Assembly: GCA_946404685.1 (NCBI GenBank)
Contig: CAMJEK010000003.1
Location: 1 to 46,554 of the forward strand
Direction of reading: 5' to 3'
DNA: 46,554 nt
DNA from: an uncultured Candidatus Saccharibacteria bacterium
GTDB taxonomy: Bacteria > Patescibacteriota > Saccharimonadia > Saccharimonadales > Saccharimonadaceae
Of the stretch, positions 10,472 through 46,554 are shown piece after piece. Each line of letters begins with the position of its first letter. Within the stretch, counting starts at the first letter, position 1. The notes beneath the pieces are model-generated. The model was not told the DNA's origin. It was given only the letters and a program-made list of their open reading frames with translations, and did no database searches. The position numbers and the translations under genes were made by a program.

Positions 10472-11086
10472 ATGAATAATAGACCAATTAAAACTGCAAC
10501 TACTGCCGGCCTCCTCGGTATCTTTCTGGGCGCGTTTGGCGCGGGCGACTGGTATCTATCTAGTGGTGGAAACACTAGTGCAGAACATAAGAAGAAAGCA
10601 ATCATCCACGTTATTATTGCCGGTGTCGGTATTGCAATGGAAATTATCTCTTCAATCATAGTTGCAAACTCAACAAGATCACTCGCGAGCCTCATTGGTG
10701 CAGTTACCTCTCCAGCCGCTGCTATTAGTGGAATTCTTGGAGCTGTCGGTTGGCTCACGCTTGCAGGCAGCGCTGTATGGGGTATCGTCGATGGCATCCG
10801 CTTCTTGACTAAAGGCGACGCCGGTCTTGCTGCGGAAGGTTTTGCTACCGCCGCTCCAGCTCAACCATATGCTCAACCATATGCGCAGCCATACGCTCAG
10901 CCGATGCAACAACCATATGCGCAACCAATGCAACCAGCTCAACCAATGCAACCAGCTCAGCCTATGCAACCAGTTCAGCCTGTGCAACCAGCTCAGCCAA
11001 TGCAGCCAGTCCAGCCAGCTCAGCCAATTCAGCCAACTGAACCAGCTCAACCAATTGATCAAAATAATCCATTTAATCAACAATAG
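10472..11086 (+). CDS. TM2-like membrane protein with Pro/Gln-rich repeat tail
   Basis: The N-terminal 120 residues hold about three membrane segments. The first, [19 protein letters not shown], resembles the TM2 domain pattern (LGxFLGxxGxxxxYLG). Residues 125-204 are a low-complexity tail of QPYA and [11 protein letters not shown] repeats, ending NNPFNQQ. A tail of this type is probably cytoplasmic and disordered, and could bind partners. The repeat DNA is open in several frames, which explains the long antisense shadow ORF. An AAAGG 8 nt before the ATG serves as ribosome binding site. The next gene follows after 11 nt and also has an Ala/Pro-rich tail, so the two may function together. Function unknown. 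Confidence 0.7.
10860..11070 (+). repeat. Degenerate Pro-Gln-rich coding repeats
   Basis: Tandem units based on CARCCA (QP/AQP/MQP) encode the tail of the TM2-like protein. Units such as CAACCATATGC and CAGCCAATGCA recur with small changes, so copy number may vary by slippage. Confidence 0.7.
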
Positions 11087-23370: not shown

Positions 23371-23420
23371 ACAAAAATGGTCTGGGTGACCTGACTTGAA
23401 CAGGCGACCTCAGCGTCCCG
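23371..23420 (-). repeat. 50-bp duplicate of the 3' half of tRNA-Pro
   Basis: The segment is identical to 23454-23503, which covers the tRNA-Pro anticodon loop to CCA and a few flanking bases, with an offset of 83 nt. It lies just after the uvrD stop codon. See findings for the associated hairpin. Confidence 0.9.
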
Positions 23421-23440
23421 TTCGTGAAGCGCGGGACGCT
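23412..23440. repeat. Inverted repeat joined to the tRNA-Pro fragment
   Basis: AGCGTCCCG, 11-nt loop, CGGGACGCT on the plus strand. The tRNA fragment supplies one arm. In tRNA orientation the loop reads CGCTTCACGAA. There is no T-tract, so it is not a standard terminator. Confidence 0.85.
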
Positions 23441-23460
23441 CGAGTTATTAAGCACAAAAA

Positions 23461-23536
23461 TGGTCTGGGTGACCTGACTTGAACAGGCGACCTCAGCGTC
23501 CCGAACGCTGCGCGCTACCAACTGCGCTACACCCAG
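23461..23536 (-). tRNA. tRNA-Pro (anticodon CGG)
   Basis: The full cloverleaf reads on the minus strand. The acceptor is CTGGGTG/CACCCAG with discriminator A and encoded CCA. The anticodon stem CAGCG/CGCTG encloses TTCGGGA, giving CGG. C1:G72 is typical of bacterial tRNA-Pro. The 320-bp gene-free stretch from 23369 to 23688 holds this tRNA, its 3' duplicate and the promoter of the next gene. Confidence 0.95.
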
Positions 23537-23552: not shown

Positions 23553-23591
23553 TCACAATTTCTCTGGCCTTAATTTGTACACAAAAAAGTA

Positions 23592-23620
23592 TTGACATAT
23601 CATACTGCTCATGCTCTAAT
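23592..23620 (+). promoter_or_regulatory. Sigma70 promoter of the first tandem surface-protein gene
   Basis: TTGACA, 17 nt, TCTAAT. The downstream 60-70 nt leader (GTAGAGTGTAAAGTTATACG and on) is almost identical to the one before the next paralog. Confidence 0.85.
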
Positions 23621-23688
23621 TGAGGTAGAGTGTAAAGTTATACGGCCTAAAAACAAACAGAGCAAAACCAAAAAAGGGAAATAAAAAC

Positions 23689-25863
23689 ATGTCAAAACAA
23701 ACATTTCGTTTGAGGAATAATATTATCCTAAACATTTTGTTTTCATGCTCTAGCGTTTCGCTAGCCCTTTTTGGTCTGCTCACTTTTGTTCCACCGTATA
23801 ACCCAGAGAAACAGGCCGAAGCTCTCATCGATCCAGATCTCTATACTATTTCTGTAAATGCTGTTTCGGACATTAGTCTCCAAGTAAATCCAACCGCTGC
23901 CGGAACCGTAGCGATGGTTGAAGACGTTATTACTAGCTCCACGAACTCTCCATCTGGTTATAAACTCTATGTTTCTGTAGACGGAGATCACAATGATATC
24001 TATCTCAATGGTGATTCAAACAATGACGTGTCCGGCAAAAAGATTGCTGCAACCTCTGGCACTTTTGATTCCCCAGCAGCCCTCACTAGCGATTCATCAT
24101 CCTCATGGGGTTATGCAGTTCCTGGTCTAAATAATTTTGACATCGCCTATGATCCATCCTCCCCATCTTCCTCCGCTAAGTTTGCAGCACTCCCAGTTAT
24201 TGGTGAAGAACAACTCATCCATGAACACGAAGGCGTAGCTACAGACGACACAACTAGTGTCTATTATGGGGCCAAAGTAGACTCCAATATTGCTGCAGGC
24301 CACTATATTGCCAACGTCGTTTATACTTCCATGACAGATATTTCATCTATTACAAATGGCGAGCTTACAGTTTCTCCAAACGACTTCACAGAAAACTACG
24401 ATCCAGTAACCATCACAATCACGACTTCTCTTAGCACTTCCCGTGAGATCGGAACTGTAACTGCAACTGTTGGTGGAAACATTTGTGACAATCTAAACAT
24501 TATAGATTATGATCCGTTAGCGGTAACCTGTACCCTCCCAGCCGGCCTCTCTAATGCAAGACACGGCGTAACCTTGAACATTCCACGTCTCGGCAAAAGT
24601 TACGAAGATGAAAACGGCATCACGGTTGCGGCAACATCTCACACTTGCACTAAGCAATATCGTCTCCAAAACGCAGATGGCACCTATCCAGACGAATATG
24701 TTCAGGACCCAAGTCAAACCGAAACAATTGCCCATGGTGAAACCTGTTCTTACACTAAATCTGTTGAGGACTACCAAGAACAGACAATCACTATCACTCC
24801 ATATGAGGATACCGCAGTCTCTCTAGATCTTCCACGCAACATGTATGAACTCACAATTACACATAACGCTTTCATCGTCTCTACCTCCGGCGCCGGAACC
24901 TATCGTTGGGGTGAAGAAGTCCCTGTCTCTGCCATCTCAACAGGTGAACTCCCGTTTAGAAAATGGAAACAAAAAGCCGGAACGACGAGCACTTTCACAG
25001 ACGAAACTCAAATTGAGACTTCATTTATCATGCCTAAATCAGACGCAACTATCTTCGCAGATGGTGGCAGCTACTGTGACTATGAACCAGGAGAATCTTG
25101 GGAATTCTCATACAAAGGCTCTCCGGAGGAATTCCCAGTGCCTTGCGCCGGAACATATAAATTAGAAGTATGGGGCGCGCAAGGATACTGTACTGATACT
25201 GGTAGTGCATCTGGTAAAGGAGGCTACTCTGCCGGAAACGTTTCTTTAGAAACCGGCGCAGTTCTAAAGGTTGTTGTTGGGGGCTATAATAATGGCTACA
25301 ACGGCGGAACCTATAATTCTTCGTACGATTCTCCTAATGGTTGGTATGTGACCTACTCTGGTGGAGGAGCTACACATATCGCACTAAAGAAAAATAATGA
25401 TACATTCACGACACTTCAATCATATAATAATCCAGCAACCGCAATAGAATACGTCTATCTTGTTGCTGGCGGCGGCGGCTCTGCAGCATACTGGTCTGGA
25501 AGTGGCGGTGCTGGTGGAGGAGAAAATGGACTTGGTGGTGGCGGTGTGAATCCTGGCCGCGGAGGAACCCAAACCTCAGGATACGCGTTTGGTCGTGGCC
25601 AACCTGGAACATATTGGGATAATAACGACTCTCATCCGCACTACACCGGAGCCGGTGGCGGTGGCTGGTATGGTGGAACAGCCGGCGGCGTGAAACAGGA
25701 TTCTGGCGGTGGCGGCGGATCTGGATATTTAAACGTTGACCTCGGTTTGTTGAATAGTGAGGGTATTGCTGGCAATGCATCTATGCCAACACATGATGGT
25801 ACTGGTACGATGACTGGTAACACTGGCGCTGGTCATGCAAAAATCACCCTGCTCGAAGACTAG
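23689..25863 (+). CDS. Glycine-rich modular surface protein, tandem copy A
   Basis: The 724-aa protein starts with an uncleaved or signal-type hydrophobic helix (residues 12-37), then a domain of about 180 aa (DLYTISVNAVSDISLQVNP to VVYTSM) and a beta-sandwich-like region (residues 220-305). A C-x-K-QYRLQNADGTYPDEY module (320-385), a divergent InlB-B repeat (LDLPRNMYELTI to FIMPKSDATIF) and a glycine-rich C-terminal module (from CAGTYKLEVWGAQG) follow. No sortase signal is visible, so the N-terminal helix may anchor it. It is adhesin-like by architecture. The N-terminal 260 residues are nearly identical to copy B while the C-terminal module differs. AAAGGGAA precedes the ATG. A terminator follows. 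Confidence 0.88.
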   Translation: MSKQTFRLRNNIILNILFSCSSVSLALFGLLTFVPPYNPEKQAEALIDPDLYTISVNAVSDISLQVNPTAAGTVAMVEDVITSSTNSPSGYKLYVSVDGDHNDIYLNGDSNNDVSGKKIAATSGTFDSPAALTSDSSSSWGYAVPGLNNFDIAYDPSSPSSSAKFAALPVIGEEQLIHEHEGVATDDTTSVYYGAKVDSNIAAGHYIANVVYTSMTDISSITNGELTVSPNDFTENYDPVTITITTSLSTSREIGTVTATVGGNICDNLNIIDYDPLAVTCTLPAGLSNARHGVTLNIPRLGKSYEDENGITVAATSHTCTKQYRLQNADGTYPDEYVQDPSQTETIAHGETCSYTKSVEDYQEQTITITPYEDTAVSLDLPRNMYELTITHNAFIVSTSGAGTYRWGEEVPVSAISTGELPFRKWKQKAGTTSTFTDETQIETSFIMPKSDATIFADGGSYCDYEPGESWEFSYKGSPEEFPVPCAGTYKLEVWGAQGYCTDTGSASGKGGYSAGNVSLETGAVLKVVVGGYNNGYNGGTYNSSYDSPNGWYVTYSGGGATHIALKKNNDTFTTLQSYNNPATAIEYVYLVAGGGGSAAYWSGSGGAGGGENGLGGGGVNPGRGGTQTSGYAFGRGQPGTYWDNNDSHPHYTGAGGGGWYGGTAGGVKQDSGGGGGSGYLNVDLGLLNSEGIAGNASMPTHDGTGTMTGNTGAGHAKITLLED

Positions 25864-25868
25864 AAAAT

Positions 25869-25909
25869 AACAGGACTTGTTGTCTAAAACGACTACGGTC
25901 CTGTTTTTT
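25869..25909 (+). terminator. Intrinsic terminator after copy A
   Basis: AACAGGAC and GTCCTGTT pair across a 21-nt loop, which can itself form a short GTTG/CGAC hairpin. TTTTTT follows. Confidence 0.85.
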
Positions 25910-25948
25910 GTGAAATTAAAAGGGGGGCTTGCCGCTTATAAAACAATA

Positions 25949-25977
25949 TTGACATGCAAAAACTCTTATGCTTTAAT
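25949..25977 (+). promoter_or_regulatory. Sigma70 promoter of the second tandem surface-protein gene
   Basis: TTGACA, 17 nt, TTTAAT. Spacing and downstream leader match the promoter at 23592, so the regulatory region was duplicated with the gene. Confidence 0.85.
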
Positions 25978-26043
25978 AAGGGTAGAGTGTAAGGTTATAC
26001 GGCCTAAAAACAAACAGAGCAAAACCAAAAAGGGAATACAAAC

Positions 26044-29000
26044 ATGTCAAAACAAACATTTCGTTTGAGGAATAATTTTATCCTAAACATTTTGTTTTCA
26101 TGCTCTAGCGTTTCGCTAGCCCTTTTTGGTTTGCTCACCTTTGTTCCACCGTATAACCCAGAGAAACAGGCCGAGGCAGTTATAGACCCAGACCTCTATA
26201 CCATCTCTGTTAATGCTGTCTCAGACATTAGCCTCCAGGTTAATCCATCCGCCGCCGGCACTGTTGCAATGGTTGAAGACGTTATCACTAGTTCAACCAA
26301 CTCCCCGTCTGGCTACAAGCTTTATGTCTCCGTAGATGGAGATCATAACGACATTTATCTCAATGGTGATTCAAACAATGACGTGTCCGGCAAAAAGATT
26401 GCTGCAACCTCTGGCACTTTTGATTCCCCAGCAGCCCTCACTAGCGATTCATCATCCTCATGGGGTTATGCAGTTCCTGGTCTAAATAATTTTGACATCG
26501 CCTATGATCCATCCTCCCCATCTTCCTCCGCTAAGTTTGCAGCACTCCCAGTTATTGGTGAAGAACAACTCATCCACGAACACGAAGGCGTAGCTACAGA
26601 TGACACAACTAGCGTTTATTATGGCGCTAAGGTGGATTCTAATATCGCCGCAGGTCATTATGTTGCCAATGTCGTCTATACATCCATGACAGACATTTCA
26701 TCCATTACAAACGGCGAACTCACCGTCTCTCCAAACGACTTCACAGAAAACTACGATCCGGTAACCATCACAATCACGACTTCTCTTAGTACTTCCCGTG
26801 AGATTGGCACCGTAACTGCGACTGTTGGCGGAAACATCTGCGGAGATCTCGATATCGCTAATTATGACCCACTTACTGTAACTTGTACTTTACCAGCAGG
26901 CTTATCAAACTCTAGACATGATGTAATGTTAAATATACCTCGCCTTGGCAAGAGCTATGAGACCGAAGGTGGCATTAAAGTGTCCGCATCGAACCACACC
27001 TGTACTAAACAGTATCGTCTCCAAAATGCGGACGGGACTTATCCGGACGAATACACTCAAGATACTGAAGAAACAGAAACTATCGCACATGGCGAGACCT
27101 GTTCATACGCAAAGAGCGTTGATGGTTATCAAGGTCAAAACACGACTATCACCCCAGACGAAGATGTTACTTTGTCTCTCGATCTCCCAAGAAATACGTA
27201 TGAATTAACCATTCATTACAATCAATTTATCGCCTCAGTTAGTGGCGCCGGAACTTATCGCTGGGGAGAAGAGGTCTCCGTATCTGCCGTTTCGACCGGT
27301 GAAAAACCATTTAGGGGCTGGGAGCAAATGAGCGGCGAAACAAGCTCATTCGCTGACCCAACCGCAATAAGCACAACGTTTGTCATGCCAAAATCAAGTG
27401 CTGTCATTTTTGCAGATGGTGGGCGCACCTGCGACTACGATCCAGACCATACATGGACATTTGGATATACCGGAGCTCCGGAATCATTCGACGTTCCATG
27501 TGTTGGTGCCTACAAGATTGAAGCATGGGGTGCATCCGGCGGTAGCGCTTCCGCAATCGGTCACTCGATTGCTGGCGGACGTGGTGGTTATGCCGTTGGA
27601 AATTTAGTTCTGACCACTGACGATACTCTCTATATTGGTGTAGGTGGCGCTGGTGCTGGTGGGTCAACCACGGCAAGAAATGCCGCAGGTGGATGGAATG
27701 GTGGTGCAAGTGGCCACACTGAGACCCCAACCGGCTTGTGTCAAGGCGGCGGTGGTGGCGGTGGCGCAACGCACGTAGCGGTAGCAGACGGCGCTTTACC
27801 TACCCTTAGCGCATCAGATGTATTAATAGTAGCTGGCGGCGGAACTGCTGCATATGTAAAAACTGCCTATAGTGATGACGGTGAAGGTATTGATAGCTCC
27901 GCAACTGGTAAACCTGGTGGGGCTACCGTGTCACCAGTCGGAACTACTATGTCGCCAAACGGATCAACATACCGTACTGGCGGTGGATCGGGCTACGCCG
28001 GTGGAGGGGGCGGATATATAGGCGGTTCAGGAAGTGCTGGTGGAGCAAGCTACTTTGCCTCAAGCGTGAGAGAAACATCGTTTGCTGGCGGGAACTCTGT
28101 TATGCCAACTCACGACGGAACGGGAACTATGACCGGAAATAGTGGTAGCGGTTACGCCAAAATCACGTTCATTGGTGAAGCTTATCAAGTCATATTCGAC
28201 GCTAACGGCGGGAACGTCGATATCGCAAGTAAGACACTCGATCTAAACAATAATATAATGGGCGATATGCCAGTGCCTACTAAAAACGGTGAATTCTTCT
28301 GGGGCTGGTATACTGATACTACATATAAAACGCTAGTAACCACTACTTCAGTCATAAAAGAGAACATGCGCCTATACGCAAGATGGGGCGCCCAGAATAA
28401 AGACTTTGATTATCAGGGCTATGTTGAGGGTGTAAGGGTCCCTACAAGTGGTACATATAAAGTTGAATTATGGGGTGCATCCGGTGGCACCGCAAACCCA
28501 ATCGGTCACACTATTGCTGGTGGGCGCGGTGGCTATGTCACGGGAAATGTATATCTAACAGCTGGTAGTTACCTCTATATTGGTGTAGGCGGTGCTGGTG
28601 CAGGCACATCGACCACGTACAGGGATGCTGTGGGCGGATTTAACGGTGGCACAAGTGGCCACGTCGAAACCCCACTCGGTCTATGTCGAGGTGGCGGCGC
28701 TGGTGGTGGCGCAACACACATAGCAACAGCAGATGGTACTTTACCAACTCTTAGTGCATCGAATGTAATGATCGTAGCTGGTGGTGGTTCTGGTGGGTAC
28801 GGAAGAACCAACTACAGTAATGACGGTGAATACATTGAAAATAGTGTAGTCGGTGGTGCTGGCGGTGTTACCGTATCTCCAGTCGGAACCAACATTTCAG
28901 CAAGCGGCTCCTCATTCCATATCGGTGGTGAAGCGGGCTACTCTGGCGGAGGCGGCGGATATGTTGGTGGCTCCGGCAGTACTAGTGGTACGAGCTACTT

Positions 29001-29127
29001 TAGTGAATCAATTACGTCTACGTCTTCAAAATCCGGAAATGAATCTATGCCAACCCACGACGGAGCGGGAACCATGACTGGTAACTCCGGTAGTGGCTAC
29101 GCAAAACTCACCTATCTCGGTAATTAA
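26044..29127 (+). CDS. Glycine-rich modular surface protein, tandem copy B (two glycine-rich modules)
   Basis: The 1027-aa paralog has the same order as copy A up to about residue 470: N-terminal hydrophobic helix, conserved domain, YRLQNADGTYPDEY module and divergent InlB-B repeat. It then has a glycine-rich module (CVGAYKIEAWGASGG to YAKITFIG), a canonical Listeria-Bacteroides/InlB repeat (YQVIFDANGGNVD to RLYARWG, about 715-785), and a second glycine-rich module (GTYKVELWGASGG to YAKLTYLGN) that is similar to the first. An internal duplication with an InlB linker therefore made copy B longer. Likely extracellular and adhesin-like; ligand unknown. It converges on dnaK across a shared terminator. 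Confidence 0.88.
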   Translation: MSKQTFRLRNNFILNILFSCSSVSLALFGLLTFVPPYNPEKQAEAVIDPDLYTISVNAVSDISLQVNPSAAGTVAMVEDVITSSTNSPSGYKLYVSVDGDHNDIYLNGDSNNDVSGKKIAATSGTFDSPAALTSDSSSSWGYAVPGLNNFDIAYDPSSPSSSAKFAALPVIGEEQLIHEHEGVATDDTTSVYYGAKVDSNIAAGHYVANVVYTSMTDISSITNGELTVSPNDFTENYDPVTITITTSLSTSREIGTVTATVGGNICGDLDIANYDPLTVTCTLPAGLSNSRHDVMLNIPRLGKSYETEGGIKVSASNHTCTKQYRLQNADGTYPDEYTQDTEETETIAHGETCSYAKSVDGYQGQNTTITPDEDVTLSLDLPRNTYELTIHYNQFIASVSGAGTYRWGEEVSVSAVSTGEKPFRGWEQMSGETSSFADPTAISTTFVMPKSSAVIFADGGRTCDYDPDHTWTFGYTGAPESFDVPCVGAYKIEAWGASGGSASAIGHSIAGGRGGYAVGNLVLTTDDTLYIGVGGAGAGGSTTARNAAGGWNGGASGHTETPTGLCQGGGGGGGATHVAVADGALPTLSASDVLIVAGGGTAAYVKTAYSDDGEGIDSSATGKPGGATVSPVGTTMSPNGSTYRTGGGSGYAGGGGGYIGGSGSAGGASYFASSVRETSFAGGNSVMPTHDGTGTMTGNSGSGYAKITFIGEAYQVIFDANGGNVDIASKTLDLNNNIMGDMPVPTKNGEFFWGWYTDTTYKTLVTTTSVIKENMRLYARWGAQNKDFDYQGYVEGVRVPTSGTYKVELWGASGGTANPIGHTIAGGRGGYVTGNVYLTAGSYLYIGVGGAGAGTSTTYRDAVGGFNGGTSGHVETPLGLCRGGGAGGGATHIATADGTLPTLSASNVMIVAGGGSGGYGRTNYSNDGEYIENSVVGGAGGVTVSPVGTNISASGSSFHIGGEAGYSGGGGGYVGGSGSTSGTSYFSESITSTSSKSGNESMPTHDGAGTMTGNSGSGYAKLTYLGN

Positions 29128-34622: not shown

Positions 34623-34709
34623 TGGCGGAAGGGACAGGATTCGAACCTGCGAAGCTATTAACTTGCTGGTTTTCAAGACCAGTGCCATCAACCACTCGGC
34701 CACCCTTCC
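34623..34709 (-). tRNA. tRNA-Ser (anticodon TGA)
   Basis: The minus strand reads GGAAGGG ... CCCTTCC-G-CCA. The anticodon stem CTGGT/ACCAG encloses CTTGAAA, giving TGA. A long variable arm (CAAGTTAATAGCTTCG region) confirms serine. Confidence 0.95.
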
Positions 34710-46328: not shown

Positions 46329-46405
46329 GCACCCGTAGCTCAGTGGATTAGAGCATCTGTCTTCGGAACAGAGGGTCGTGGGTTCGAGTCCCTCCGGGTG
46401 TACCA
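46329..46405 (+). tRNA. tRNA-Arg (anticodon TCG)
   Basis: The acceptor is GCACCCG/CGGGTGT with a G1:T72 wobble, discriminator A and encoded CCA. The stem TCTGT/ACAGA encloses CTTCGGA, giving TCG. The T-stem has a T.T mismatch at 50:64. A minus-strand suf promoter lies just upstream. The gene-free stretch from 46286 to the window end holds only this tRNA, its 3' duplicate, a terminator and a possible -35. Confidence 0.95.
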
Positions 46406-46431: not shown

Positions 46432-46469
46432 GGGACTCTGGCTTCGCGCGAGTCCCTCCGGGTGTACCA
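46432..46469 (+). repeat. Hairpin joined to a 21-nt duplicate of the tRNA-Arg 3' end
   Basis: GGGACTC, 11-nt loop TGGCTTCGCGC, GAGTCCC, followed by TCCGGGTGTACCA. Bases 46449-46469 repeat tRNA bases 46385-46405 exactly. The unit lies between the tRNA and its terminator, so it should be transcribed with the tRNA. Confidence 0.88.
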
Positions 46470-46483
46470 ATATATAGACCATA

Positions 46484-46514
46484 AAAATAACCGCTTATGT
46501 AGCGGTTATTTTTT
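46484..46514 (+). terminator. Intrinsic terminator of the tRNA-Arg transcript
   Basis: AAAATAACCGCT, 5-nt loop, AGCGGTTATTTTTT. Confidence 0.92.
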
Positions 46515-46531
46515 AGCGACCATCTTTAAGA

Positions 46532-46537
46532 TTGACA
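46532..46537 (+). promoter_or_regulatory. Possible -35 box at the window edge
   Basis: ATTGACAT resembles the -35 context of the surface-protein promoters at 23592 and 25949. With a 17-nt spacer the -10 box would start at 46555, one base past the window, so it cannot be confirmed. Confidence 0.3.
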
Positions 46538-46554
46538 TGTTTTCTTTTGTCGCT

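Follow-up and report, generated by a model that had tools for sequence, protein, structure and literature searches.

The 3' ends of tRNA genes are classic landing sites of mobile DNA, and displaced tRNA fragments serve for the mapping of islands. Behind tRNA genes we found units of 60-120 bp, in each of which a spacer or terminator is followed by an inverted arm, a short core hairpin and a copied tRNA end. They fit no mobile element known so far, but several known systems resemble them in part. REP/BIME palindromes with RAYT transposases are likewise short, intergenic, imperfect and present in many copies; however, our units stand only behind tRNA genes, their arms copy the host tRNA and no RAYT gene was found. 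Integron attC sites, too, are hairpins with internal loops that stand in tandem behind an anchor site, but the units have neither an integron integrase nor gene cassettes, and their arms are set by the adjacent tRNA. The fragments known as tRF-3 and tRNA 3' halves, which we take to be 18, 21-22 and 43 nt long and to end in CCA, are like the copies in these respects; the units, in contrast, are DNA copies, and the genome under study has no reverse transcriptase (PF00078 was absent from it and positive in one of eight genomes, G283). In the islands of tyrosine integrases (Islander; Williams sublocations), a 3' fragment lies downstream in the same orientation, runs to the 3' end and has its boundary in the anticodon loop, T loop or T/acceptor junction, which are the three subsites of these integrases in Islander, and only tyrosine recombinases were then known to target tDNAs (PMC4383910). 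Unlike these islands, the units are small, enclose no island and come without an integrase other than Xer; their fragment is preceded by an inverted arm that matches the host and by a core hairpin, and they form arrays and occur at many tRNAs per genome. Template switching makes perfect hairpins in a single event, in which an inverted copy arises together with a local duplication (quasi-palindrome mutations; PMC8794818). The arms of the units agree with this in being inverted copies of sequence close by, and so does the duplicated flank; however, the cores are not of local origin, and the units differ further in sharing constant cores across tRNAs and species and in their site preference.

The present locus lies in a window of 46,554 nucleotides (the whole stretch of DNA that was analysed) from an uncultured Candidatus Saccharibacteria bacterium, whose genome is called G000 here. 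Positions 23371-23420 and 23454-23503 are identical letter for letter. The tRNA-Pro(CGG) gene, placed by ARAGORN, is followed in tRNA orientation by a T run, CTCG-AGCGTCCCG, the 11-nt loop CGCTTCACGAA, a 43-nt copy of its own end and the 7-nt flank TTTTTGT (Table 1), and the interval from the CCA to the copy, which comprises spacer, arm and core, is about 40 nt. In the stem, AGCGTCCCG and CGGGACGCT enclose the loop, and past one bulged G it is extended by CTC/GAG. Folding gave a pair probability of 0.97 for the inverted arm (X') with the second copy (X2), and of 0.005 for X' with the tRNA itself. A first-pass annotation, made from the letters, had pointed to the exact 50-bp repeat from anticodon loop through CCA and to the hairpin with its bulged extension; coordinates and letters were re-confirmed, and the pairing bears the hairpin out. 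The duplicate and its hairpin are real and far above chance. No integrase gene lies between the tDNA and the fragment, which agrees with the earlier statement that no integrated element is present. The tRNA-Arg(TCG) at the window end had been described as built alike, and this was confirmed: its tail reads GGGACTC / TGGCTTCGCGC / GAGTCCC and includes a 21-nt copy. The two remaining tRNAs of the window, tRNA-Met (33285) and tRNA-Ser(TGA), have no downstream copy.

Table 1. Positions of tRNA genes and unit parts in the window
Feature	Positions	Strand
tRNA-Pro(CGG), intact, with encoded CCA	23461-23536	-
Spacer after CCA (T run, then TTAATAA) with stem-extending CTC and bulged G	23441-23460	-
Inverted arm X' AGCGTCCCG, complementary to nt 1-9 of the copy	23432-23440	-
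11-nt core/loop CGCTTCACGAA, a variant within the TTC-loop type of core	23421-23431	-
Second copy of the tRNA-Pro 3' part, C34 to CCA, 43/43 identical	23378-23420	-
TTTTTGT flank, duplicated also after the first CCA	23371-23377	-
tRNA-Ser(TGA), site empty in the window and filled in relative G336 by a unit of 78 nt	34623-34709	-
tRNA-Arg(TCG), intact	46329-46405	+
Inverted arm of the Arg unit, GGGACTC	46432-46438	+
Core of the Arg unit, TGGCTTCGCG; shared with the Leu(caa) unit at another place in the genome	46439-46448	+
21-nt copy of the tRNA-Arg 3' end, C56 to CCA	46449-46469	+

Among the 41 tRNA genes of the window genome, copies of the gene's own 3' end were found behind Pro(cgg), Pro(tgg), Arg(tcg), Leu(caa), Ser(gct), Lys, Gly(tcc) and Ser(gga), and the Pro(tgg) tail has two hairpins. 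With a score of at least 11 as the criterion for a copy, the own tRNA was matched in 8/35 tails and the ends of other tRNAs in 7/1398 comparisons with the identical downstream sequences. Three further related genomes had copies in 9/41, 14/34 and 8/20 tails, which gives 39/130 tails for the four genomes pooled, as compared with 46/4849 swapped pairs (0.95%). This bears out the earlier suspicion of a specific unit rather than an accident. Furthermore, copies were present in 10/30 tails of a genus genome that is 99% complete in four contigs (G163), and in 6/32 tails of an overlapping sample of five complete genus genomes; the matching design was seen in independent assemblies from different studies. 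In complete genomes from other genera of the family, 3/39 tails had copies (background 18/1853 pairs), and proline loci from 28 family genomes had none (0/36). The copies are a feature of the genus of the window organism, with at most rare cases outside, and in well-sampled genus genomes hairpin units stand behind up to about one third or more of the tRNA genes. The survey of loop and stem likeness at other tRNA genes, which had been put forward as a test of the first observation, showed that the design recurs throughout the genus with several core types. The four tmRNA genes examined are without such a tail. As far as we have searched, this family of tRNA-tail units has not been described before; the literature searches, which mostly did not cover subscription papers, found no description. 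Three contigs of the window genome stop precisely at a tRNA CCA, C36 at Ile(tat), C17 at Ala(ggc) and C26 at Arg(gcg), hinting at further long tail copies or at strain variation that broke the assembly.

The anatomy of the units was surveyed in 299 tails, in which 87 copies of at least 10 nt were counted. Their starts are discrete, at 18 nt (28 copies), 21-22 nt (17), 11-12 nt (15) and 28-30 nt (7) from the tRNA 3' end, and the Pro copy of the window starts at 43 nt; these places are T-loop position 59 and C56, the T/acceptor junction, the variable loop/T-stem start and the anticodon. The copy ends exactly at CCA in 47/87. The arm X' precedes the copy and pairs with it. Within 50 nt, an inverted copy of the first nine bases was found at 7/9 positions or better in 31/87 copies, compared with 7% of swapped arms, and at 8/9 or better in 9/87, compared with 0.8%; the copies without an arm of at least 7/9 have longer or branched inserts instead. 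The inversion of X in X' is often imperfect and leaves an internal loop of 2-3 nt near the T/acceptor junction (Ser, Ala).

Several types of core were distinguished. Type A is (C/A)TA-[GCGAGC..GCGAGC]-GTC, with an inner stem that covaries between species; all five occurrences of TAGCGAG..CGAGCGTC (also given as TAGCGA..CGAGCGTCC) in the window genome are behind tRNA genes. Its pattern was found in 20/174 genus genomes and the reversed control pattern in two. Apart from a few chance matches in genes, nearly all type A sites adjoin a tRNA gene whose end is copied on the 3' flank, and the outer arms pair at 7 or more of 9 positions in 19/46 units, compared with 1.4% after swapping. In an exact scan for the specific type A form (one genome per species), only Candidatus Saccharibacteria MAGs matched, from ruminant guts where the source was named; confinement of the family to a rumen subclade was nevertheless rejected, because this is true of the type A scan only and copies occur genus-wide. 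Type B has a 3-bp stem around TTC (GGC TTC GCC AA, ACC TTC GGT G, TAC TTC GTA T), and its copy usually starts at CG. The loop GCTTC(A/G)CG, noticed at first as common to the Pro and Arg units, belongs here; it does recur, but as only one of several core types, and the inner stem varies around the TTC loop. Types C and D are longer inserts after the TTCG of the copied T arm, and a further type consists of simple tetraloop hairpins, GGAT-NNNN-ATCC. While the arms match the host tRNA, the cores, of 11-36 nt, are common to different tRNAs: the Leu(caa) unit combines the arm GGGAATC, matched to Leu, with the core TGGCTTCGCG of Arg(tcg). The main puzzle is how a core that stays constant comes to be joined to an arm that fits its host: an element moving with fixed ends cannot achieve this, and local template switching alone is insufficient as the source of a shared core. 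Units also stand in tandem arrays, at Asn in G163 with identical terminators and at Lys in G340 with three units. In another locus (L082, around 1390-1540), a tRNA-Glu-like sequence with a 36-nt hairpin core inside its T loop lies upstream of an intact tRNA-Glu.

The window genome was compared with G336, the closest motif-bearing relative examined. Pro(cgg) is filled in G000 and empty in G336, a presence/absence difference of 83 bp, and Leu(caa) is distributed in the same way; Ser(tga), on the other hand, is empty in G000 and filled in G336, where the old terminator is retained behind the second copy. The direction of change at these sites, gain or loss, can presumably be read from the duplicated sequence. 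Such empty and filled sites between close species offer a natural polymorphic system for studying the origin of new perfect hairpins. In the Lys hairpin, a compensatory change from GGTGAG/CTCACC to GGCGAG/CTCGCC separates G000 and G336.

We tentatively read the units, with somewhat less than even confidence, as DNA-level, target-copying insertion or duplication units of one genus-wide family. Directly observed are the anatomy of the units with its fixed boundaries, their presence or absence between relatives, the combination of shared cores with arms that match the host, and the tandem arrangement; a strand asymmetry was not found, nor, in the window genome, any integrase, RAYT or RT gene, one Xer-type recombinase aside. 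Where a strand ends or stalls in the tRNA 3' region, it would fold back, an arm complementary to the host tRNA would be copied onto a transferable core, and synthesis would restart inside the tRNA, so that its 3' end is duplicated. Recombination between copies could then expand the units in tandem, and cores would spread from tRNA tail to tRNA tail; the whole process may run without a dedicated enzyme. A hairpin that acts as RNA should show more G.U than A.C on the sense strand. In 52 copy hairpins we counted 19 G.T and 18 A.C, and 13 G.A and 15 T.C, a test of limited power; equal G.T and A.C are the expectation for copied DNA arms that decay without strand preference. Against fold-back copying, cores of this length in different tRNAs are impossible by plain local template switching, X' is often imperfect and a near inverted arm accompanies only a part of the copies (31/87). 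In addition, the model explains only loosely, by helix ends and loops, that the starts are integrase subsites, and no intermediate was observed. In a more specific form, which we consider possible but doubtful, a tRNA-anchored repeat family carries only the core hairpin, copies its arms from the target tRNA at each insertion and, having no integrase of its own, inserts at the anticodon loop, T loop and T/acceptor junction; this would be either a micro-element templated by its target or a novel activity that processes DNA ends at tRNA genes. For a genus whose genomes lack a dedicated integrase, the repeated gain of matching hairpin fragments at tRNA tails would imply that either an unrecognised process copies the target onto a constant core, or the "fragment" signature of integrases is possible without integrases.

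A serious rival, although rather unlikely, is that the tails are integrase attachment-site scars or micro-islands, in which a tRNA 3' fragment was displaced by site-specific integration and the element was then lost, or a cargo-less circle was mobilised in trans by the integrase of a phage or plasmid. The strongest argument for such an origin is that the three main places where copies start are integrase subsites (PMC4383910). The fragments also lie downstream in tRNA orientation and run to CCA, and related species differ in their presence or absence. The coincidence of starts and subsites is not decisive, because strands of a folded tRNA gene would also stall or be cut at its helix ends and loops. 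The search for recombinases speaks against it: a single PF00589 recombinase was found in 7/8 genomes and none in G344. The copy examined, that of the window genome, lies elsewhere in the genome, outside the Pro unit, and has Xer-type domains; it scored 259.9 bits with XerD and 246.3 with XerC, both below the equivalog cut-offs, and 131.1 with the integron integrase model, whose cut-off is 265. No genuine match to an attP was obtained in IMG/VR, phages or plasmids: phage and plasmid BLAST gave nothing, and viral contigs scanned for the Arg/Leu core gave 0 matches. Further core scans yielded four viral pattern matches, none at a tRNA gene and three in GC-rich (0.60-0.66) contigs, which look like chance. 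Moreover, the units, of 60-120 bp, form tandem arrays with no island inside, and their hairpins are centred outside the block of identity, in contrast to the classical core site, which flanks the crossover. The minimal mobile element or integrase scar considered in the first-pass annotation is weakened, there being no integrase besides Xer. In G291, an island of about 8 kb (L116, 579-8753) stands directly behind tRNA-Phe, with a large serine recombinase ORF overlapping the tRNA on the opposite strand. The tails as remnants of this island were rejected, since it sits between the tRNA and its tail.

Unlikely, but likewise a serious rival, is a functional RNA trailer, that is, a co-transcribed tail that acts as a terminator or makes the pre-tRNA bistable, with X' paired to either the tRNA 3' end or the second copy. 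The units do lie downstream on the tRNA sense strand, and in folding the Arg(tcg) RNA prefers X' paired with the tRNA's own end while the second copy takes its place, so that an Arg pre-tRNA could adopt an alternative fold with the second copy replacing the first. The compensatory change at Lys and the covarying inner stems show that base pairing is maintained, but correction of palindromes in DNA has the same effect (PMC8794818). However, the compensated Lys arm no longer fully pairs with the tRNA, X' of Pro(cgg) pairs almost exclusively with the copy, and many units sit past a strong terminator. The copy stems are balanced in G.T and A.C, whereas terminator-like stems lean to G.T (20:9 in a first count). 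An RNA role is possible but not favoured, because the copy stems have no such excess, and the earlier idea of a trailer acting on tRNA processing is not supported. As for the terminators themselves, those of tRNA genes in the genus (e.g. L025, L120) have long, symmetric stems with the A run paired with the T run; in places, as with CTCACCAATAAAAAGAAGCC..GGCTTATTTTTATTGGTGAG at Lys, the stems reach into the end of the tRNA, and they look as if they came from snap-back copying.

Extragenic palindromes of the REP kind, moved by a RAYT (Y1) transposase, are a very improbable source. The units are, like them, imperfect GC-rich palindromes, intergenic and repeated, with internal mismatches, but Y1_Tnp was found in 0/8 genomes while all five control genomes matched, and the arms vary with the host tRNA whereas a REP sequence is fixed; on inspection, no constant tetranucleotide, a REP trait, was seen before the hairpins, the outer arms of which follow the host tRNA. 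An assembly artefact or chance duplication is scarcely credible: the genome is metagenome-assembled in 37 contigs, some of which end exactly at a tRNA CCA, but the design recurs in independent assemblies and in the four-contig genome, and swapped-pair controls are near zero.

Some minor observations were made around the units. At the Arg(tcg) tail of G336 (L174, 5113-6747), a pyrG-like gene lies between the tail and the next terminator; in the window genome the terminator follows the Arg tail (46470-46554) and the pyrG-like gene is absent there. We rejected pyrG as a cassette, since no further tRNA copies bracket it. Within the window, a 9-bp-step array at 10901-11062 encodes a Q/P-rich repeat inside the ORF at 10472-11086. 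The region 23583-29127 holds two paralogous genes (23689-25863 and 26044-29127), whose leader regions are duplicated with 82-88% identity and whose products have glycine-rich ALK_LTK_GRD and InlB/Listeria-Bacteroides repeat domains; they apparently represent a surface protein duplicated in tandem. A stretch of 48 nt from this region is found again at 267-314.
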